A stretch of 64,000 bases of DNA from Planococcus wigleyi. GTDB taxonomy: Bacteria; Bacillota; Bacilli; Bacillales_A; Planococcaceae. Both the position numbers and the translations under genes were made by a program. The stretch lies in assembly GCF_014836985.1 (NCBI RefSeq), contig NZ_JACSPU010000001.1, forward strand, positions 1-64,000, read 5' to 3'. Below, piece after piece: positions 11,694 through 56,899 of the stretch. The notes under the pieces are model-generated. The model worked only from the letters and a program-made list of their open reading frames with translations, ran no database searches and was not told the origin of the DNA. Position 1 is the stretch's first letter, and each line of letters begins with the position of its first letter.

Positions 11694-12605
11694 TTATATC
11701 AGTTCTTCTGCTCGTTTGGGCACTAGCATTTTTAGGCTGCCCGGCTGAATTTCGATATCGAGCGGTGTCTTTAAATAGATTTCGCCATCGGTATCGACAT
11801 CCAATTCTTCCGTTGTTTTGATGGAAATGGATTTTCCTTGGTAATGGACGATATGCTCAAGTTCTTCAGTCACCACTTCAGGCTGCGACAATGAAAACCA
11901 TTCACGCAGGGCAGCCAAAGAAGATGTTTGGATAATAAATAGATCCAATAGGCCATCTGCCGGATCGATTGTGGCCAATGGGAAGTTATGCGTACCGATC
12001 GATTTGCCGTTCATGACAAGAACCAGCACGCCTTCTTCAGCATAGGTGATGCCATCAATCTTCAGCTGCACGGGGAATGGGTCTGCCTGTCGCATGGATT
12101 GCAGCGCACTCATAAAATAGCTCAGCTTACCATAACGCTCTTTTAGATGAGGATCAATATTTGAAGACGCATCCGTGATCAGCCCGATGCCAGCAAAGTT
12201 AAGGAAAGACCCGCCATTGATCCGACCCGTGTCGATATCCCTAAATTCCCCATTGATCAATTCTTCCGCTGCTAAATTCAAGTCTAAAGGGATATTCAAG
12301 GTGCGTGCAAAATCATTGCACGTGCCACTTGGCAATATAGCCATCGGAGGAGGGGCGGGAATAGCTGATAAGGCACGGACTGCAGAATGGACCGTCCCAT
12401 CGCCTCCAGCGATAAACAAAATGTCTGCATGGGTTGCAGCTGTCTGGCAGGCATTTTCGAACTCTTCGGGTGATTCAGTTTGGATAAGTTCGAGTGACTT
12501 GGAGGCTTCAGCCAAGTGCGGAACGGCCATTCGCAGGACGGAGTCTATCGTAGACGCTCCTGCGTTGCCGTTATACAATAAAACGGAACGATTGAACTTA
12601 GGCAT
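11694..12605 (-). CDS. Diacylglycerol kinase family lipid kinase
   Basis: YegS/BmrU/DagK-type lipid kinase, 303 aa. The catalytic fold has GGDGTVHSA (nucleotide loop), LPSGTCNDFARTL and the later GIGLITDAS and DPADGLLDLF segments. The family phosphorylates diacylglycerol or related lipids with ATP at the membrane surface. It is shorter in similarity to DagK than to BmrU/YtlR-like proteins, so the exact lipid is uncertain. It stands alone, divergent from the alaX-type gene, and shares the downstream terminator with the lysine catabolism operon. Confidence 0.85.
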   Translation of the reverse strand: MPKFNRSVLLYNGNAGASTIDSVLRMAVPHLAEASKSLELIQTESPEEFENACQTAATHADILFIAGGDGTVHSAVRALSAIPAPPPMAILPSGTCNDFARTLNIPLDLNLAAEELINGEFRDIDTGRINGGSFLNFAGIGLITDASSNIDPHLKERYGKLSYFMSALQSMRQADPFPVQLKIDGITYAEEGVLVLVMNGKSIGTHNFPLATIDPADGLLDLFIIQTSSLAALREWFSLSQPEVVTEELEHIVHYQGKSISIKTTEELDVDTDGEIYLKTPLDIEIQPGSLKMLVPKRAEELI

Positions 12606-41215: not shown

Positions 41216-43038
41216 TGCTCATTATATTTCTAGGAGTGCTCTCCCAATGGATTGCGTGGCGTCTTCAGCTTCCTGCAATTGTACTGATGTCGATTGCCGG
41301 CCTCCTTGTCGGCCCAATTTTTGAAATCATCCACCCCGCCGAGAGTTTCGGGGAACTGTTCAATCCGTTTATTTCATTGGCAGTAGCGATCATTTTGTTT
41401 GAAGGCAGTTTGAATTTGAATTTCAAGGAAATCCGAACCTTCAGCAAGCCGATTTTACGGATCGTCACACTCGGCGCATTCATTGCCTGGATCGCCGGGT
41501 CCCTGGCTGCGCATTACATTGCCGGTTTATCGTGGGCAGTGGCATTTGTTATCGGCGGGCTGTTTATCGTAACCGGGCCCACCGTTATCCTGCCGCTATT
41601 GCGGCAAGCAAAGTTAAAATCACGCCCGGCAGCCATCCTGAAATGGGAAGGCATCGTTGTCGATCCTTTCGGGGCGTTGCTGGCTTTATTTGCATTCCAG
41701 TTTGTATTGTTTGCCAATGGTGACGAAACAGCGGCCGCCTTTGGCCTGTTTTTCCTGGCATCCCTTTTTGCAGCCGCACTTGGCGCAGGAGCAGGGTGGC
41801 TGATGGGGCTGATGTTCGAGAGAGGGCAGGTTCCGGAATTTCTGAAGGCGCCGATGGTTTTTGGTATGGTGCTGCTGACTTTTGTCGTGTCGGATTTGAT
41901 CATGCATGAAACCGGGTTGCTGGCGGTGACCGCAATGGGCATGATGATGGCCAATATGAACATCGCTTCGATTAATGACATGCGCCATTTCAAAGAAAAT
42001 ATTTCCGTTCTGCTGATTTCCAGTATTTTCGTGATGCTGACTGCTTCATTAAGCCTCGAAGTCCTGATCAGCATCTTCAACTGGCAGATCATTTCATTCG
42101 TTTTGGCGACGCTGTTTGTCGTCCGGCCTTTGTCGATTTGGCTATCGACGATCGGCACCGATTTGACGATTCAGGAAAAAACCTTGGTCGGCTGGATTGC
42201 GCCGCGCGGCATCGTGGCTTTGACGGTTTCCGGTTATTTTGCGGGCGTTTTGCTGGAAGCCGGATTTGCAGATGCGGAACTGCTGACGGCGCTGACTTTT
42301 GCGCTGGTCTTTTCGACCGTTATCGTACACGGCTTTACTATCAGCTGGCTTGGCAAAAAGCTTGGGTTGGCAACAGCGGATGACCCAGGTGTCATCATTG
42401 TGGGAGCCAGCCGGTTTGCCACAAAGCTTGGTGAAGCAATGGCAGATTTCAATAAAAACGTACTGATTGTGGACCCTTCCTGGGGTCGCCTGCAAGGGGC
42501 GCGCCAAGCTGGATTGAAGACATATGCTGGTGAAATCCTGTCGGAGCATACGGATTATGAAGTGGAGTTAACGCCTTACGAGACGATGATTGTTGCTACA
42601 GAGACCGATTCCTACAACTCTCTTGTCGTCAATAATTTCGTTCCGGAACTGGGTCGTACGAACCTTTACCAGACAGCGATCCATATTGGGGATCCGTCTG
42701 ACTTTCATGTTTCCTTGAGCGGGCGGACGTTATTCGCAGAACAATGGAATATCCATGAACTGGAGGCGAAGACCGAAGAAGGCTATACGATGCGCAAGAC
42801 GCAATTGACGGATCAATTCAGCTTCGAGGACTTCAAAGGAAAATGGTCAGATGAGATGATCCCGCTCTTTATTCAAAGGTCCCAAGGAAAAATTGAGTTC
42901 TTTGAGGGCAGCAATAAACTTGAACCAAAAGCTGGGGATGTAGTTGTCAGCTTTACTTCTCCTGCACGCCAATCGGACCGCACGCAAGAACGTTTGGAAA
43001 ACAAACGGGTTAAAATTGCGACTCAGTCTAAAGAATGA
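41215..43038 (+). CDS. CPA1-type cation/proton antiporter with TrkA-like C-terminal domain
   Basis: A 607-aa protein with about twelve membrane helices (about 1-385) and a cytoplasmic tail with a TrkA_N/RCK-type Rossmann fold (VIIVGASRFATKLGEAMADF, then LIVDPSWG). Antiporter features include LFEGSLNLNF, VTGPTVILPLLRQ, KWEGIVVDPFGAL and the late APRGIVALTVSG. It exchanges Na+ or K+ for H+ and the tail probably senses nucleotide or redox state. Start is uncertain: TTG 41212 or ATG 41215 fit the frame but lie over 30 nt from the only ribosome site. Confidence 0.88.
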   Translation: MLIIFLGVLSQWIAWRLQLPAIVLMSIAGLLVGPIFEIIHPAESFGELFNPFISLAVAIILFEGSLNLNFKEIRTFSKPILRIVTLGAFIAWIAGSLAAHYIAGLSWAVAFVIGGLFIVTGPTVILPLLRQAKLKSRPAAILKWEGIVVDPFGALLALFAFQFVLFANGDETAAAFGLFFLASLFAAALGAGAGWLMGLMFERGQVPEFLKAPMVFGMVLLTFVVSDLIMHETGLLAVTAMGMMMANMNIASINDMRHFKENISVLLISSIFVMLTASLSLEVLISIFNWQIISFVLATLFVVRPLSIWLSTIGTDLTIQEKTLVGWIAPRGIVALTVSGYFAGVLLEAGFADAELLTALTFALVFSTVIVHGFTISWLGKKLGLATADDPGVIIVGASRFATKLGEAMADFNKNVLIVDPSWGRLQGARQAGLKTYAGEILSEHTDYEVELTPYETMIVATETDSYNSLVVNNFVPELGRTNLYQTAIHIGDPSDFHVSLSGRTLFAEQWNIHELEAKTEEGYTMRKTQLTDQFSFEDFKGKWSDEMIPLFIQRSQGKIEFFEGSNKLEPKAGDVVVSFTSPARQSDRTQERLENKRVKIATQSKE

Positions 43039-43081
43039 AATCATCCATATGTAAGCTTTTCGATACGTAATGTGAAACAGG

Positions 43082-43103
43082 GTTTGTTATGATTGGAACA
43101 AAC
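43082..43103 (+). promoter_or_regulatory. Operator-like dyad over an extended -10
   Basis: GTTTGTT (43082-43088) and AACAAAC (43097-43103) form a perfect 7-bp inverted repeat. It covers TGTTATGAT (43085-43093 region), an extended -10 element upstream of the FMN reductase gene. A repressor binding the dyad would occlude the promoter. Confidence 0.45.
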
Positions 43104-43191
43104 GGGTTGCTGCGGATTTAGTTGCAATAACGTGGATTTACACACATACAACCGATTCGTTACTTACGCATTTTGAGGAGGACATAGAATT

Positions 43192-43755
43192 ATGAAAGTT
43201 TTATTAGTAGACGGAACGATTCTTGGACGAAAAACCGGTGCCATTCTGGAACAGGTGCAGACTTACATCAAGGAATTCGCTCCTGAAATGGAATTAACGA
43301 TATTGAAGCTGGCCGATTACGACCATCAGTTTGTCGATGGCCGTCCACTTGGTGAATACAATGACAGCATGCAGGAAATTGTCCGCCGCTTTGAAGAAGC
43401 CGACGGCTATATCATTGCCTCGCCGATTTTCCAGGGTTCGATTCCAGGTGTCCTGAAGAATACATTCGACATGCTGCATCCGCGCACCATGCGCTACAAG
43501 CCGGTATCGATTGTGGCGAACGGCGGCACTTACCAGCATCACTTGGTCATCGAAAACCAGCTCAAGCCGATTCTCGATTACTTCCGCTGCCTGGTGACGC
43601 CCAACTACGTCTACACCCACAGCAGCCATTTTGACGACACCAACACCATCACCAACGACGACGTCCACAACCGCCTGCGCGAACTGGCACGCGTATTCGT
43701 GCAATATGCGGAGATGAGTAAGCACCTGTCGAAGGAAACGTTGGATAATCATTGA
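43192..43755 (+). CDS. NADPH-dependent FMN reductase family protein
   Basis: A 187-aa flavodoxin-fold protein of the SsuE/YwqN/ArsH-like FMN reductase family. Features are the N-terminal strand and phosphate loop (VLLVDGTILGRKTGA), the SPIFQGSIPGVLKN motif contacting FMN and the later SIVANGGTYQHH. It should reduce FMN or quinone-like substrates with NADPH. AGGAGG is 10 nt before the ATG. It is monocistronic with a dyad-bearing promoter region and a terminator. Confidence 0.88.
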   Translation: MKVLLVDGTILGRKTGAILEQVQTYIKEFAPEMELTILKLADYDHQFVDGRPLGEYNDSMQEIVRRFEEADGYIIASPIFQGSIPGVLKNTFDMLHPRTMRYKPVSIVANGGTYQHHLVIENQLKPILDYFRCLVTPNYVYTHSSHFDDTNTITNDDVHNRLRELARVFVQYAEMSKHLSKETLDNH

Positions 43756-43766
43756 TTGAAGGAAGA

Positions 43767-43792
43767 AACCTCCCTGTGTGGGAGGTTTTTTT
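43767..43792 (+). terminator. Terminator
   Basis: Stem AACCTCCC/GGGAGGTT, loop TGTGT, run of T. Confidence 0.9.
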
Positions 43793-43849
43793 GGTGTCAT
43801 TTTGGATTTTGTTTGAAGAAATGATTTGTTTTATTCCATTAAAAGAGCT

Positions 43850-43941
43850 TACTTTCTATTAAGAGTCAAATACTTTCTGTTTAGGAGCAAATACTTTCCG
43901 TAAATGATTGAATACTTTCTAATAAACTCTAAATACTTTCC
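43850..43941. repeat. 21-bp-period repeat array, left of NERD gene
   Basis: Five copies of TACTTTCY start at 43850, 43871, 43892, 43913 and 43934, a spacing of exactly 21 bp each time. Between cores, 13 variable bases usually end in AAA. The last copy lies in the final codons of the NERD gene, and its stop codon (TAG on the minus strand) is within the array. Read on the transcript of that gene the core is GGAAAGTA or AGAAAGTA. Confidence 0.92.
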
Positions 43942-44894
43942 ATGCCTTCAAAAAGTTCAGGAATAGCATATATTCGATCTTTATAACTTCCTGCAAAGGG
44001 CATATTCGTCGATTTTAATAGCTTGGAGGCGGTGGTAGTGTAGTGAAGTCCAGTAAACTCCCGGAATTCCCGATTGCTGATCGTCGTATTGGCCAGTGTC
44101 CGGTATTGCAACAATGCTTCAAGATGAGCGACCGGGTCACCATGGGCGCACGTTTCGCAGCGCCACTTCCCCCGGCGGTAACTCAGTAAGCGGTCCGAGC
44201 AATCAGGACAGAATATACCTTTCAAAAGTGAATTCGAAAGACCCAGAGGTGCTGAAGGTTTTGAAGAATGAAGCTCCAACAATTTATGGGCGATTAATTC
44301 TGTTTTCTTCTTTGATAAGATTTCTTGCGGATGTTTTTCCAACAATCGATCCATTAGGTGGGGGAGGCCGGAAGCCTGGACCATCAAACGGTTTCCGGCT
44401 CGCGATTGAACGACCGATGAAGGATAAGTGAAGACGATGACGCCGATGACAGGCAACTTTACCCGCTGCTGGAATAAAAACTGTTCCAGCCATTTTTCGT
44501 GGCGGCGCAATTGGTCATCCGGGTTTTTCATGCCGTCGATGCTGCCGTCTTTATTGGTACGGGAAAATTGCCTCAGTTGGGGATCGAAGTTGAGCAGGCC
44601 GGAAATGCTTTTGATTTCCAATGCCAATATGAAACGGCTGGTGATGAGGACGCTGTCAATCTGATGGGAAGACTTCTCTTTTTGGATGAATAAGTCGTGG
44701 ATGAAGTAATGCGGCAAAGGGAGATCGATTTCGTGCCAAAGGGAGTCGACGCGCAATTCGCCGTGGTAACCGGCAGTGATGCGGCGGAGTTTTTCGGTCC
44801 AGTAGGGAGCTTGGGGATGGACGGGTGATATGCGCTGGAGCAGGCTTTCGAGCTGGAAGATTTCTTGCGGTTTGTTTCGATCTTTAAAAATCAA
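43929..44894 (-). CDS. NERD-domain protein with zinc ribbon
   Basis: A 321-aa protein. The NERD (nuclease-related) domain at about 40-160 has GYHGELRVDSLWHE (conserved Gly-Glu), the Asp of HQIDSVLIT and the ALEIKSISG strand with Glu-x-Lys, the same arrangement as restriction-type nucleases. A C-terminal zinc ribbon (CPDC and CETC, about 238-260) leads to a basic, helix-turn-helix-like end. Its activity is unproven; DNA or RNA processing is the usual guess. The TTG at 44894 follows GGAGAGG; the ATG at 44954 overlaps the promoter. Repeat arrays flank both ends in the same orientation. Confidence 0.85.
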   Translation of the reverse strand: MIFKDRNKPQEIFQLESLLQRISPVHPQAPYWTEKLRRITAGYHGELRVDSLWHEIDLPLPHYFIHDLFIQKEKSSHQIDSVLITSRFILALEIKSISGLLNFDPQLRQFSRTNKDGSIDGMKNPDDQLRRHEKWLEQFLFQQRVKLPVIGVIVFTYPSSVVQSRAGNRLMVQASGLPHLMDRLLEKHPQEILSKKKTELIAHKLLELHSSKPSAPLGLSNSLLKGIFCPDCSDRLLSYRRGKWRCETCAHGDPVAHLEALLQYRTLANTTISNREFREFTGLHYTTTASKLLKSTNMPFAGSYKDRIYAIPELFEGMESI

Positions 44895-44925
44895 TTTATC
44901 CTCTCCTTTTTTATAAATCTGCTCC

Positions 44926-44954
44926 AATATAGCGTAAATTCTTAGGGATAGCAA
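44926..44954 (-). promoter_or_regulatory. SigA promoter of NERD gene
   Basis: Minus strand TTGCTA (44949-44954), 17-bp spacer, TATATT (44926-44931), about 32 bp before the TTG start. Confidence 0.72.
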
Positions 44955-44988
44955 TACTGTTTCAAGGATTCTGGAAGTTATTTGGAAA

Positions 44989-45080
44989 TGCTTTCTGTTT
45001 GGGTCAAAATACTTTCCAAAAGGCTATAAATACTTTCCAATAAAATGAGTTTACTTTCCATTGGAAGCTAAATACTTTCC
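44989..45080. repeat. 21-bp-period repeat array, right of NERD gene
   Basis: Five copies of T(A/G)CTTTCY start at 44989, 45010, 45031, 45052 and 45073, again exactly 21 bp apart and in the same orientation as the left array. The array lies upstream of the NERD promoter and about 80 bp before topB, so between two divergent transcription units. Confidence 0.92.
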
Positions 45081-45160
45081 AACCGACAAAAACCCCTCCC
45101 AAAAGCCAGCTTCAACAGAAAATGTTACAATAATCACATCAGAAATGAGGGTGAATTTAA

Positions 45161-47320
45161 ATGAAATCAGTAGTTTTAGCAGAAAAGCCATCCGTGGCGC
45201 GTGATATTGCGCGTGTTCTCGGATGCGAACAAAAAGGCAATGGATATTTGGAAGGCAAGCAATATATCGTCACGTGGGCACTTGGCCATCTGGTGACGCA
45301 TGCGCAGCCGGAGCAATACGACAACGACTTCAAGGAATGGAAAATGGATACTTTGCCGATCATTCCAAAGCCGTTCAAGCTGGTGCCGATCAAACAGTCA
45401 ATGAAGCAGTTTAACGCGGTCAAATCCCAGCTGCAGCGCGGCGATGTCAAAGATGTCATCATCGCGACAGATGCTGGACGCGAAGGCGAGCTTGTGGCGC
45501 GTTGGATTCTGGAGAAGACCAATACGCGCAAGCCGGTGAAGCGCCTGTGGATTTCGTCCGTTACCGATAAAGCCATTAAAGACGGCTTCAACAACTTGAA
45601 AGACGGCAAGGCTTACGAAAATCTCTACGCAGCAGCTGTTGCACGTGCGGAAGCGGACTGGGTAGTCGGCATCAACGCGACGCGCGCGCTGACCGTCAAA
45701 TACAATGCGCAATTGTCAACTGGCCGCGTGCAGACACCGACGCTGGCGATGATCGCCGAACGCGAAAAGCAGATCCGCAATTTCCAGCCGAAGCCGTATT
45801 ACGGCATGCAGGCGATTACCGACAAAGCGGCATTCACCTGGACGGACGGCAACTCGACGCAATCCTTCGACAAGGACAAAATCGACCGCTTGTTCAATAA
45901 ACTCCAGAACACCCACGAAGGCACTGTGACGGATATCAAGATTACGCCGAAACGCCAGCCGGCACCGCCTTTATTCGACTTGACCGAACTGCAGAAAGAA
46001 GCCTACAAGCGCTATAGCTGGTCGGCGAAAGAGACGCTCAACACGCTGCAGAATCTTTACGAGCGCTACAAAATTGTGACCTATCCGCGGACCGACTCGA
46101 AGCATTTGACGAGCGACATGCGGGATACCTTGAAGGACCGCGTCAAAGCGGTGCAAATGGGTCCTTACCGCAGCCTGGCCGCAATGATCTTGAAAAATCC
46201 GGTAGCGCCGCAGAAAGGCGTGATCGACGACGCAAAAGTTTCCGATCACCACGCCATCATCCCGACGGAAGAAACGCCGCCGCTGCATGATCTTTCCGAT
46301 AAAGAGGTTAAATTATACGACATGATCGTCAAGCGCTTCCTAGCGGTATTTTACCCGCAGTACGAATACGACCAGACGACCGTCAAACTGACTGCCGGCG
46401 GGGAAACGTTCCAGGCAAAAGGCAATACGATCCGCAATGAAGGCTGGAAACGCATCTACAAAGATGAAGATGACGACAACGATACTACGCTGCCGCCGTT
46501 TGAAAACGGGCAGAAGCTGGCGATCAAAGGCATCGCGCTGACGGATGGAAAAACCAAGCCGCCCGCTTTCTTCAATGAAGGGACGCTTCTTGGCGCTATG
46601 GAAAATCCGACGCAGTTCATGAGCGGCGAGTCGAAAGAACTGATTCAGACGCTCGGCGAAACCGGTGGACTGGGTACGGTTGCAACGCGTGCCGATGTCA
46701 TCGATAAATTGTTCAATACTTTCCTGATTGAGAAAAAAGGCAAGGACCTGACGATCACTTCAAAAGGCCGCCAGTTGCTGGAACTTGTTCCGGAAGACTT
46801 GAAGTCGCCGAAGCTGACAGCAGATTGGGAACAGCAATTGACCAAGATCGCCAAAGGCCAATTGAAAAAAGAAGAATTTATTAAAGAAATGATTGTCTTC
46901 GCTGAAAAATCCGTATCGGATATCAAGAAGAGCGACAAAAAGTTCAAGCATGACAACATCACCGGCAAAATGTGCCCGGATTGCGGCAAACCGCTTCTTG
47001 AAGTCAACAGCAAGCGCGGCAAAATGAATGTCTGCCAGGATCGCGACTGCGGCTACAAAAAGCAAGTGGCGATGCAGACCAATGCGCGCTGCCCAAACTG
47101 CCACAAGAAGTTAGAGATGCAAGGTGAAGGAGACGGCAAGATTTTCGTCTGCAAATGCGGACATCGCGAGAAGTTGTCAGCCTTTGAAAAACGCAAAAAA
47201 TCCGGTCAATCTAAAGCTAATAAAAAAGACGTCAATAAATACTTGAACCAGCAGGAAGAAGCGCCGCAAAATACGGCGATGGCTGATGCACTGAAAAAAT
47301 TATTGGGCCAAACCGAATAG
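45161..47320 (+). CDS. topB: DNA topoisomerase III
   Basis: Type IA topoisomerase, 719 aa. The Toprim domain is at the N-terminus (VVLAEKPSVARDIA, ATDAGREGELVARW with the metal-binding acidic residues). The catalytic Tyr is in VTYPRTDSKHL. The C-terminal tail has two zinc-ribbon-like Cys groups (CPDCGKPL..CQDRDCG and CPNCHKKL..CKCG) and a basic end. It relaxes and decatenates DNA, often with a RecQ helicase. It lies behind an extended -10 (TGTTACAAT, near 45126-45134). Confidence 0.95.
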   Translation: MKSVVLAEKPSVARDIARVLGCEQKGNGYLEGKQYIVTWALGHLVTHAQPEQYDNDFKEWKMDTLPIIPKPFKLVPIKQSMKQFNAVKSQLQRGDVKDVIIATDAGREGELVARWILEKTNTRKPVKRLWISSVTDKAIKDGFNNLKDGKAYENLYAAAVARAEADWVVGINATRALTVKYNAQLSTGRVQTPTLAMIAEREKQIRNFQPKPYYGMQAITDKAAFTWTDGNSTQSFDKDKIDRLFNKLQNTHEGTVTDIKITPKRQPAPPLFDLTELQKEAYKRYSWSAKETLNTLQNLYERYKIVTYPRTDSKHLTSDMRDTLKDRVKAVQMGPYRSLAAMILKNPVAPQKGVIDDAKVSDHHAIIPTEETPPLHDLSDKEVKLYDMIVKRFLAVFYPQYEYDQTTVKLTAGGETFQAKGNTIRNEGWKRIYKDEDDDNDTTLPPFENGQKLAIKGIALTDGKTKPPAFFNEGTLLGAMENPTQFMSGESKELIQTLGETGGLGTVATRADVIDKLFNTFLIEKKGKDLTITSKGRQLLELVPEDLKSPKLTADWEQQLTKIAKGQLKKEEFIKEMIVFAEKSVSDIKKSDKKFKHDNITGKMCPDCGKPLLEVNSKRGKMNVCQDRDCGYKKQVAMQTNARCPNCHKKLEMQGEGDGKIFVCKCGHREKLSAFEKRKKSGQSKANKKDVNKYLNQQEEAPQNTAMADALKKLLGQTE

Positions 47321-54384: not shown

Positions 54385-55575
54385 TTGTCGAAAAAATTAG
54401 ATGCATTTTTAGATGAGAACTTAACAGAATTAAAAGAGCAGGGCCTCTATAATGAAATCGATCCGGTTGAAGGACCGAACGGCGCGATCATCAAAGTGCG
54501 CGGCAAGGAACTGATCAACCTTTCTTCAAATAACTACTTGGGGCTTGCGACCAACGAAGACTTGAAGCAAGTGGCAAAAGACGCCATCGACAAATACGGT
54601 GTCGGCGCAGGGGCAGTCCGTACAATCAACGGAACGTTGGATCTGCATGTGAAGTTGGAAGAAAAGTTAGCTGAATTCAAAGGTACAGAAGCGGCTATTT
54701 CTTATCAATCCGGCTTTAATTGCAACATGGCGGCCATTTCAGCTGTCATGGACAAGAACGATGCGATTCTTTCTGACCAGTTGAACCATGCATCCATCAT
54801 CGATGGCTGCCGCTTGTCGAAAGCGAAAATCATCGCATTTAAGCACTCGGATATGGAAGACCTTCGCCTGAAAGCGAAAGAAGCGACTGAATCCGGCCTT
54901 TACAATAAAGTCATGGTCATCACAGATGGTGTCTTTTCGATGGATGGCGATATTGCCAAGCTTCCGGAAATTGTAGAAATCGCCAAAGAATTCGACTTGA
55001 TCACATACGTGGATGATGCGCACGGTTCAGGCGTTACCGGCAAAGGGAAAGGCACCGTGAAGCATTTCGGCCTTGAAAAAGAAATCGATATGCAAATGGG
55101 TACTTTATCCAAAGCAGTCGGCGTTGTCGGCGGTTATGTGGCCGGCAAGAAAAATCTGATTGACTGGTTGAAAGTTCGTTCACGTCCATTCTTGTTCTCG
55201 ACAGCGGTGACTCCAGGCGACGTTGCAGCTATCACAGCGGCAGTCCAAATGATCATCGACTCAACGGAATTGCACGATAAATTGTGGGACAATGGCGATT
55301 ACTTGAAAAAAGGCCTGGATAAACTAGGCTTCGATATCGGCCATTCAGAAACACCGATCACTCCTTGCATCATCGGCGACGAAAAGTTGACGCAGGAATT
55401 CTCGAAGCGTTTGTTCGAAGAAGGCGTCTACGCGAAATCAATCGTCTTCCCAACGGTTCCAAAAGGCACTGGACGCGTCCGCAACATGCCGACAGCTGCC
55501 CATACGAAAGAAATGTTGGATGAAGCCATTGCCACTTACGAAAAAGTCGGCAAAGAATTAGGCGTCATCAACTAA
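54385..55575 (+). CDS. kbl: 2-amino-3-ketobutyrate CoA ligase (glycine C-acetyltransferase)
   Basis: PLP-dependent alpha-oxoamine synthase, 396 aa, converting 2-amino-3-ketobutyrate and CoA to glycine and acetyl-CoA. The PLP Lys is in [12 protein letters not shown]; other motifs are [38 protein letters not shown] and YVDDAHGSG. The TTG at 54385 is the start because AGGAAGAGG lies just upstream; the ATG at 54349 overlaps the leader. Its pathway partner, an SDR-type threonine dehydrogenase, lies 5.3 kb downstream in the same direction. Confidence 0.92.
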
Positions 55576-55636: not shown

Positions 55637-55727
55637 TACAGTCCTGGTTGGGTGAAATACAGTCCAAATTGGCGAAGCACTGTCGAAATCAGCTTACTTA
55701 CTGTCCAAAACAGGCACAATACTGTCC
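55637..55727. repeat. 21-bp-period repeat array at 3' end of M20 gene
   Basis: Five copies of a TAC(A/T)GTCC core have their TAC/CAC triplets ending at 55639, 55660, 55680, 55701 and 55722: spacings 21, 20, 21, 21. Two copies lie in the last codons of the minus-strand amidohydrolase, giving LDSIVPV-LDSK, and the stop falls between copies. On that transcript the core reads GGACAGTA or GGACTGTA. Confidence 0.88.
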
Positions 55728-56899
55728 AACGCCAATTTCTGCTCCTCAAAATAAATCGCAGCGAACATTTCCGCTGTTACCAGCATAGCGGTTTCATTAA
55801 AATCGAAGTTTTCATGGTGATGCGGGTAAACAGCCTGTTCATCATCCATTTTCGCGCCGACAAAGAAATAGGCGCCGGGTTTGGCCTGTGTAAAATAAGT
55901 GAAATCTTCGACCGGCATGACCGGATCGATTTCCACCACATTTTCAACTCCCAATACTTCACGGCCGGCAATGCGGACACGATCGGTTTCAGCTGAATGG
56001 TTCCAAAGAGAATCGTAGCCATTTTCGATGATCACTTCTGCGGTGGCGCCCATGGCGATGGCGACGTTCTCGACAACGGTCCGAAGGCGCTGGCTGGCGA
56101 GCGCGCGGAGTTCGGGATCGAATACGCGAATTGTGCCTTCCAGCACTGCTTTGCTCGAAATGACGTTATCGGCATCGCCGGCATGGAATTTGCCGATTGA
56201 GACGACCAGTTCTTTCAATGGATCGGCATTGCGGCTGACGATGGACTGCAAAGCAACCATGATATGGCTCGCTGCCAAAATCGGATCGACGCCGTTGTGC
56301 GGTTCTGCCCCGTGTGTTCCGGAACCGTGGACGATAATTTTGACGGTATCTTCAGAAGCCTGAAGGAATCCGTCGCGCACATAAATCCGGCCGCTGTCCA
56401 TCTTGCTTTGCAGGTGAGCACCGTAGACCGCATCGACGCCGTCCAGGCAGCCATCTTCAATCATGGCGCGTGCACCGCCTGGCGATAGTTCCTCGCCGAA
56501 TTGATGGATCAAGACAATTGTGCCCGGCAGTTCTTCCTGAATGGCCACCATCGTTTTGGCGAAGCCCAGCAAAGCGGCAGTATGGCCATCATGGCCGCAG
56601 GCGTGCATCACACCCGGAACCGTGGACTTATAAGAAACGTCTTTTTGGTCATCGATCGGCAAAGCATCGAAATCTGCACGGAATGCAATCGTTTTGCCAG
56701 GCTTTCCGCCGCGGATCGTCCCGACAACACCACGTCCGCCAACGTCCCGGCGAACTTCTATACCCAATTTTTCCAAACGATCCGCAATAAAAGCGGGCGT
56801 GGCGATTTCTTGATGCGACAATTCGGGGTGCATATGCAAATATCTTCGGGTCTCCACCATTTCGCCGTAGAGCGACCGGATCTGTTCAGTTAACGTCAT
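55694..56899 (-). CDS. M20D amidohydrolase
   Basis: Metal-dependent N-acyl-amino-acid amidohydrolase, 401 aa, of the group containing N-acetyl-diaminopimelate deacetylase, hippurate hydrolase and IAA-amino acid hydrolase. Metal ligands are in HACGHDGHTA, FGEELSPGGA and AHLQSKM, with the late His of PHHHENFDFNE. The last eleven residues (LDSIVPVLDSK) derive from the repeat array. Divergent from the dipeptide epimerase gene with 100 bp between, suggesting a shared role in peptide or murein recycling. Confidence 0.88.
   Translation of the reverse strand: MTLTEQIRSLYGEMVETRRYLHMHPELSHQEIATPAFIADRLEKLGIEVRRDVGGRGVVGTIRGGKPGKTIAFRADFDALPIDDQKDVSYKSTVPGVMHACGHDGHTAALLGFAKTMVAIQEELPGTIVLIHQFGEELSPGGARAMIEDGCLDGVDAVYGAHLQSKMDSGRIYVRDGFLQASEDTVKIIVHGSGTHGAEPHNGVDPILAASHIMVALQSIVSRNADPLKELVVSIGKFHAGDADNVISSKAVLEGTIRVFDPELRALASQRLRTVVENVAIAMGATAEVIIENGYDSLWNHSAETDRVRIAGREVLGVENVVEIDPVMPVEDFTYFTQAKPGAYFFVGAKMDDEQAVYPHHHENFDFNETAMLVTAEMFAAIYFEEQKLALDSIVPVLDSK

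Follow-up and report, generated by a model that had tools for sequence, protein, structure and literature searches.

A NERD-domain gene with phased 21-bp arrays, one of a large and apparently undescribed family in Bacilli

Introduction

The window analysed here, a stretch of 64,000 nucleotides from Planococcus wigleyi, carries a NERD-domain gene with an array of short, phased repeats on each side. They represent a family that is widespread in Bacilli and, it seems, has not been described before; each of its proteins has its own core word, or dialect. Comparison across the family reveals a constant association of gene and array, private dialects, covariation between the C-terminal module of the protein and the core, and conservation of core and phase as against freer spacers; the window's arrays are also nearly absent from relatives lacking its gene type. 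On the strength of these comparisons, the protein very probably recognises its own array. The fuller reading, held with moderate confidence, is that the arrays are a resident, protein-maintained repeat family, copied or maintained through the action of the nuclease part of the protein.

The Window Locus

Array A1 (43850..43954, + strand) consists of five 21-bp units with TACTTTCY cores starting at 43850, 43871, 43892, 43913, and 43934, and array A2 (44989..45093, + strand) of five such units with cores starting at 44989, 45010, 45031, 45052, and 45073; every step is 21 bp. A preliminary description of this DNA had reported a NERD gene between two five-copy arrays of the same orientation and 21-bp period, and a recount confirmed positions, steps, and strand. 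Its reading of all ten cores as TACTTTCY holds for nine, the first core of A2 (44989) being TGCTTTCT. When cores 21 bp apart were sought with at most two mismatches, the window gave nine two-core matches, eight of them within A1 and A2; across 100 dinucleotide shuffles the mean was 0.07, and every shuffle stayed below nine. Chance is thus excluded for the window arrays. Each array follows a unit 0, which is TTTTATTCCATTAAAAGAGCT for A1 (43829..43849, + strand; aligned with unit 0 of other arrays of this genome) and ATTCTGGAAGTTATTTGGAAA for A2 (44968..44988, + strand).

The open frame with NERD, zinc-ribbon, and putative winged helix-turn-helix (wHTH) parts occupies 43929..44954 on the - strand (341 codons from the first TTG). 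Its true start is likely the TTG at 44894 behind AAAGGAGAGG, and homologues align from about 44900. The gene's 3' end (stop at 43929) runs into A1, so that the last A1 core lies inside the final codons. A2 lies beyond the 5' end of the NERD gene, ahead of its neighbour, and sits between two gene starts. The edges of this slot are formed on the left by a gene at 43192..43755 (+ strand), which we take to be FMN-reductase-like, and on the right by a gene at 45161..47320 (+ strand), presumably the DNA topoisomerase III-like topB. A third, variant array in the window, B1 (55637..55740, + strand), has five TACAGTCC/TACTGTCC cores in steps of 21, 20, 21, and 21 bp; it lies 3' of the terminator of a gene ending at 55575, and its slot is occupied in relatives too. 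An Rfam search of 43000-46000 matched no RNA family, and an RNA-family reading of the arrays was dropped on that result.

The NERD Protein

The NERD and zinc-ribbon domains named in the preliminary description were both recovered, the former above and the latter below the Pfam cut-off. The NERD domain (PF08378; E 5e-16, 59.6 bits against a gathering cut-off of 22.1) is encoded at 44427..44771 on the - strand, corresponding to residues 44-158 when the product is numbered from 44900 (323 residues). The zinc ribbon, with four conserved cysteines, lies at 44133..44225 (- strand; residues ~226-256), and a putative wHTH was placed at 43956..44117 (- strand; residues 262-315) from its conservation pattern and covariation. 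The protein alignment comprises 97 sequences, with L298 and L390 omitted (<290 aa). Conserved NERD residues in it are E48, Q80, D82, E95, K97, and Q130. Four of these are presumably the PD-(D/E)XK-like catalytic set and are kept almost throughout (E48, D82, and K97 in 95/97 each, E95 in 92/97), so that the NERD proteins carry the conserved acidic/lysine set of PD-(D/E)XK-like nucleases and are predicted nucleases. The zinc-ribbon cysteines are kept in 92-95 of the 97 proteins.

By eye, the C-terminus resembles a winged HTH. A predicted model has the element order helix-strand-helix-helix-strand, which fits a wHTH but is of low confidence (mean pLDDT 47.1). A Pfam search of 17 aligned members recovered NERD in all 17, returned no match for the C-terminal module, and matched a transposase-named zinc-ribbon model weakly in three; the 25 Pfam families listed for these members include no Y1 transposase. 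With the alignment pattern and the covariation described below, the putative wHTH is the probable DNA-reading module of the window protein.

Association of Arrays with the NERD Gene

Arrays were sought with a dialect-blind detector, which takes a 7-mer seed and requires at least four units at 21 ± 1 bp with at most one mismatch each. Arrays lying inside the gene, or having spacers at least 0.75 identical, were discarded. On 99 loci of Bacilli encoding the NERD, zinc-ribbon, and wHTH architecture, the detector then found arrays within 900 bp of 87 (L305 counted among them). These are 27/29 type I/II loci, which are the orthologues of the window's gene, 36/41 other loci of the genus, 21/26 class-wide loci (20/25 in other genera and 1/1 in the same genus), and 3/3 other paralogues of the P. 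wigleyi genome. No array was detected at 12/99 loci, and L318 and L319 look weak. Among 40 further, distant homologues of the genus, 36 have arrays within 700 bp. As controls, an array stands beside 1/26 loci outside the class whose match stops before the wHTH (NERD part only), arrays occur at 4/400 random intervals, and 400 kb of arbitrary stretches hold four. The arrays therefore accompany the full NERD-zinc ribbon-wHTH architecture, not NERD as such. A homologue at E <=0.001 is present in 48/200 Bacilli genomes and 30/94 genera, the weaker of which may be NERD-only.

At the 87 loci with arrays, a downstream array is present in 75 and an upstream array in 53. Where both sides are occupied, the two arrays have the same orientation at 34/41 loci and opposite orientation at three, with four undecided. 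The dialects of 83 loci fall into 35 clusters. Whole array modules have been amplified in tandem beside the NERD genes of L321, L309, L333, L372, and L377. At L373 (genome G081), a 54-unit array adjoins the NERD gene, and two 21-bp units alternate in it with a 42-bp super-period.

Arrays and Paralogues in the P. wigleyi Genome

Fourteen TACTTTC arrays, 12 of them beyond A1 and A2, are dispersed in the P. wigleyi genome, with five cores each and a few cores one base off; variant TACAGTCC/TACTGTCC arrays, of which B1 is one, are also present. Most TACTTTC arrays start with a 21-bp unit 0 close to TTTTTCCAGTTAATTGGATA. The arrays are built of directly repeated units on a single strand, and only unit 0 is palindromic. 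In orthologous arrays of the same dialect from four to six sister genomes, inner spacers are 0.65-0.80 identical and cores 0.99-1.00, the latter value being partly built in because array selection allowed no core more than one mismatch. The context of 46 arrays is convergent genes for 18, tandem genes for 24, and divergent genes for four, counts that stand without a genomic baseline; these arrays are 16 from this genome (A6 omitted) and 30 named ones, from 36 loci chosen by name as Bacillales.

Three pairs of TACTTTC arrays, A4/A5, A9/A10, and A1/A13, are near-duplicates with common flanks. Adjoining A13, C15:417563-417806 holds the remnant of another NERD gene, with C-terminal pieces 79% and 51% identical. 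A13 is placed relative to this remnant as A1 is to its gene, and the whole reads as a duplicated array and gene end. With A5, A10, and A13 omitted as near-duplicates, spacers at the same unit position are 0.449 identical over all five units against 0.414 in permuted order (0/500 permutations), and 0.460 against 0.446 over units 1-4 (15/500). An origin of the arrays from a master copy was considered weak because same-unit identity barely exceeds that of permuted order.

Of the homologues in this genome, four have long open frames, and a further copy is represented by two small fragments. The four NERD/zinc-ribbon/putative-wHTH genes adjoin arrays of four different cores, TACTTTC, CTACATGA, ACCGCAC, and TACGCAC; the array of one paralogue (L076) was missed by the stricter detector and found by the later one. 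The core CTACATGA has 95 two-core matches in the genome against three for the reversed control, some of them within a few tandem clusters. Its matches are concentrated in C10:147-210 kb and C17:319-345 kb, where they partly form tandem modules of ~103 bp; TACTTTC arrays are scattered instead. Beyond its gene, ACCGCAC occurs at three sites, and TACGCAC at one further site within the stretches examined. At L031 5274-5508 (C10:69274-69508), a TACTTTC and an ACCGCAC array are immediately adjacent.

Covariation of Protein and Dialect

Across all pairs of 83 loci (chosen without L305, L318, L319, and loci with little array information), dialect similarity correlates with wHTH identity at rho 0.393 and with NERD identity at rho 0.338. 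For pairs below 45% identity the correlation is small, at 0.193 (wHTH) versus 0.129 (NERD). The partial correlation with dialect is 0.161 for the wHTH given NERD (0/500 permutations) and 0.071 for NERD given the wHTH (2/500).

Within type I, the difference between TACTTTC and TACTGTC tracks a set of C-terminal positions that two clades have in common. Columns separating the dialects number 4/136 and 1/136 in NERD, 11/31 in each clade's zinc ribbon, and 12/59 and 18/59 in the wHTH. Three positions, 289 (T/V/A versus S), 296 (K/R versus other), and 306 (Y versus F), hold in five further type I proteins of clear dialect; the separation at 290 and 299 fails there. Residue 306 is Y in 9/9 TACTTTC proteins and F in 11/11 TACTGTC proteins, although these counts, like the 29 type I/II loci, are of related sequences and are not independent events. 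One of the nine Y306 proteins, L290, has a mixed TACTTTC/TACTATC array, and F306 also occurs in L287, which has no nearby array, and in L294, whose array is mixed.

The genome-wide dialect can likewise be set against the resident protein by counting three-core hits. Six F306 genomes (G002, G014, G015, G030, G031, G035) have 212 TACTGTC hits and no TACTTTC hit, and four Y306 genomes (G000, G017, G028, G067) have 12 and 115, respectively. The TACTGTC/TACTTTC counts are 13/34 in G007 (Y306), 13/2 in G062 (F306), and 7/1 in G018 (F306). Misfits occur among F306-type genomes (G005, 4/10; G061, 12/14; G066, 13/14; and G026, 11/8, whose gene is broken into two matches and whose C-terminal type was assigned from its array) and among Y306-type genomes (G008, 9/5; G064, 9/5; G065, 10/3). 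By these counts, the genome-wide dialect tracks the protein in the window's clade and fails to do so in the second clade and elsewhere; the misfit arrays may, on our reading, be legacy arrays or those of another paralogue. Among 46 genomes of the genus, each of the 29 that carry a type I/II gene shows one or more hits in either dialect. Of the 17 that lack it, 16 show no hit, and G032 shows six; this co-presence is confounded by phylogeny.

Persistence of Slots and Change of Dialect

The slot between the FMN-reductase-like gene and topB holds, in some genomes, a type I NERD gene with TACTTTC or TACTGTC arrays and, in others, a type II NERD gene (~38% identity) with TACGCTC/TACGATC-like arrays, or neither type. 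NERD is absent from this slot in G032, which retains a single degenerate TACTTTC array, and in G010, which retains a degenerate TACGCTC-like remnant. In some type I genomes (e.g., G005 and G007), the slot has an array on the 3' side of the NERD gene only. A post-terminator slot, flanked presumably by kbl and an amidohydrolase gene, holds TACWGTC, TACTTTCC, TACGCTCT, TACGACCAGTAG, TACGCCCGG, or TACGCTCAAC arrays, depending on the species. Array slots, to judge from such comparisons, persist longer than dialects.

The DNA of G007 (TACTTTC) and G005 (TACTGTC) is 78-100% identical up to the zinc ribbon, 53-61% across the zinc ribbon, wHTH, stop, and array, and 82-98% beyond the array. In this pair, the C-terminal module and the array were thus exchanged as one block. 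Spacers in the same slot are 0.42 identical across dialects versus 0.73 within a dialect, and 0.34 between non-homologous units (0/1000 permutations, unit 5 included). Spacers are thus mostly lost when the dialect changes, so that replacement and in-place change are not distinguishable; the spacer values speak against simple in-place point conversion of the cores.

Proposed Mechanism and Alternatives

We infer from sequence comparison that binding falls to the C-terminal module. Zinc ribbon and putative wHTH would read the private 7-8 bp core, and the 21-bp spacing, equal to two helical turns, would place several protein copies on one DNA face. The sites of the protein would be the arrays at the gene's 3' end, often those at its 5' end too, and the dispersed intergenic arrays, mostly near gene 3' ends. 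The conserved nuclease may nick or cut at or near the arrays, and repair would copy or maintain them. The family would have diversified into many dialects, with several protein-array pairs possible per genome. Tandem amplification of modules and near-duplicate arrays with common flanks agree with copying; the conservation of cores and the persistence of slots agree with a function, and the data suit either. Neither a transposition intermediate nor a target duplication was seen in the genomes compared (one per species).

The preliminary description had offered three meanings for the arrangement. Of these, the idea of a cassette that its own protein recognises is now favoured, given the 87/99 loci, the covariation of dialect and module, and the block exchange between G007 and G005. 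An autoregulatory operator proved too narrow a view, as downstream arrays outnumber upstream ones and dispersed copies exist. The gene may have inserted into arrays that were already there, but the single degenerate array without NERD in G032 fits gene loss by recombination between arrays equally well.

Other roles for the arrays are less probable. The most serious, although unlikely, is that the arrays park and restrain the nuclease, which would otherwise attack array-free DNA such as plasmids, phages, and incoming DNA; nuclease and DNA antidote would then form a self-licence or addiction cassette together. The conservation of the putative nuclease residues, the array adjoining 87/99 genes, and dispersed arrays with conserved cores agree with this, as does the comparison of A1 with plasmid sequences, a single query that gave only a short chance hit. 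NERD is also found in defence proteins, through weak matches to PglW and MADS6. However, all defence-library matches are weak and limited to the NERD part (PADLOC models gave no match over most of the protein, and PglW only, at E 0.022 over residues 71-201), and about a dozen arrays per dialect are few for genome-wide protection. It is quite improbable that the protein is a transcription regulator with a co-opted NERD domain, the arrays serving as operators both for its own gene and for a dispersed regulon. An upstream array at 53/87 loci and the position of A2 suit a regulator, but just 4/46 arrays lie between two gene starts (again without a genomic baseline), downstream arrays are the more frequent, and the putative catalytic residues are retained. 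The scarcity of arrays between divergent genes and the downstream excess argue against classical promoter operators.

Plasmid iterons are direct repeats at two helical turns, often in five copies, and the arrays resemble them in these respects. That the arrays serve replication or segregation, in the manner of iterons or centromeres, is nevertheless very improbable, given the single array tried against plasmids with its chance hit, a nuclease-like partner protein, several dialects per genome, and relatives that lack such arrays. It is barely credible that the arrays are an ordinary, MITE-like dispersed repeat and the NERD gene incidental to them. The near-duplicate arrays with shared flanks would suit such a repeat, but the association across many dialects (87/99 versus 1/26 and 4/400) largely refutes it, and the arrays covary with protein residues. 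Genome-wide arrays unassociated with NERD genes had been named beforehand as a refuting result; the arrays do occur genome-wide, but the same counts make the association with genes of the full architecture very strong. A CRISPR- or TIGR-type guide array was rejected because different species partly share their spacers at a common slot and the adjacent protein is NERD.

Beyond protein-maintained repeats, a more far-reaching view, which is held only tentatively, is that these proteins are naturally re-targetable sequence-specific nucleases. A private protein-DNA code, of which a genome may hold several, would license, restrain, or direct the nuclease; reading module and target array would be swapped as one piece, and slots would acquire the dialect of the resident protein. 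If this is true, the natural covariation of wHTH residues and cores would make the code readable. In this NERD subfamily the probable DNA targets stand next to the gene, and the many dialects are a natural data set on specificity change in one DNA-binding scaffold. Slots that persist through dialect change make the question of selfish repeat or host function testable.

Comparison with Known Systems

Several direct-orientation binding sites of about two helical turns are known from Tn7/Mu-type ends and plasmid iterons, and the arrays share this layout. Unlike in those systems, one NERD gene stands alone between the arrays, and its flanks are ordinary chromosomal genes.

In REPIN-RAYT systems, dispersed extragenic repeats flank a cognate gene, and a genome may hold several repeat classes, each near its own protein gene (PMC3116915). 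The NERD gene, likewise, is flanked by a repeat that is also dispersed in extragenic space, and several repeat classes per genome each stand beside their own gene. However, the protein here is NERD/zinc ribbon/putative wHTH, whereas that of REPIN-RAYT is a Y1 (HUH) tyrosine transposase. In place of palindromic REPs in inverted pairs, there are direct repeats in 21-bp phase, palindromic only in unit 0. There are also 35 dialect clusters in 83 loci here, and copying is a process that we infer. On the best reading, the NERD-array system would work by analogy like REPIN-RAYT with unrelated parts, this being the nearest logic.

Heptamer direct repeats of TAACTGA occur in Beggiatoaceae, Cyanobacteria, and Bacteroidetes, one word being common to several lineages; in the main genome of that study they lie mostly just 5' of start codons, and a translational role was suggested (PMC4679880). 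They resemble the present arrays in being a 7-bp word that is direct, dispersed, and intergenic. The arrays differ in their many dialects, and the word 'NERD' is absent from the text of the TAACTGA paper (PMC4679880).

The proteins share domain membership and PD-(D/E)XK-like residues with NERD proteins (PF08378), unlike those matching the NERD part only in that arrays accompany just 1/26 of the latter. The SmdA paper states that bacterial NERD function was, to its authors' knowledge, previously unstudied (PMC9040797), and a paper on rare CRISPR systems names NERD in a figure legend (PMC10910872). Searched by titles and abstract openings, the open-access literature, with subscription papers and preprints outside its scope, held no paper linking NERD genes with phased arrays. 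The preliminary description, too, knew of no named system with such an arrangement.

Arrays in Viral and Other Records

A scan of a viral collection returned 19 stretches, and most of those with at least four units are short-period or uniform tandem repeats. Arrays with varying spacers are present in L143 (11 units) and L146 (four units). The former, in an IMG/VR contig, starts near 11962 on the - strand and is TACTTTCT-like with a 21-bp period. A homologue of the protein was absent from the examined stretch of both (E up to 1e-4), and a search for close relatives found no viral contig encoding one. A phage or plasmid origin was set aside, as the viral arrays lack a protein homologue in their stretch and the plasmid query, made with A1 only, gave a short chance hit.

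A control stretch of G031 (L353) contains TTACCCG and TGTTTGC arrays at 2491, 16093, and 16319, which are possibly dispersed arrays of other NERD dialects. Pairs of TACTGTCC and TACTTTCC arrays, ~165-185 bp apart, occur in L175, L180, L237 (Planococcus halotolerans), and L176 (Planococcus sp. MER TA 32b). The array sequence of another genome of the genus, G020, is also present in a Planomicrobium stackebrandtii record (L236).
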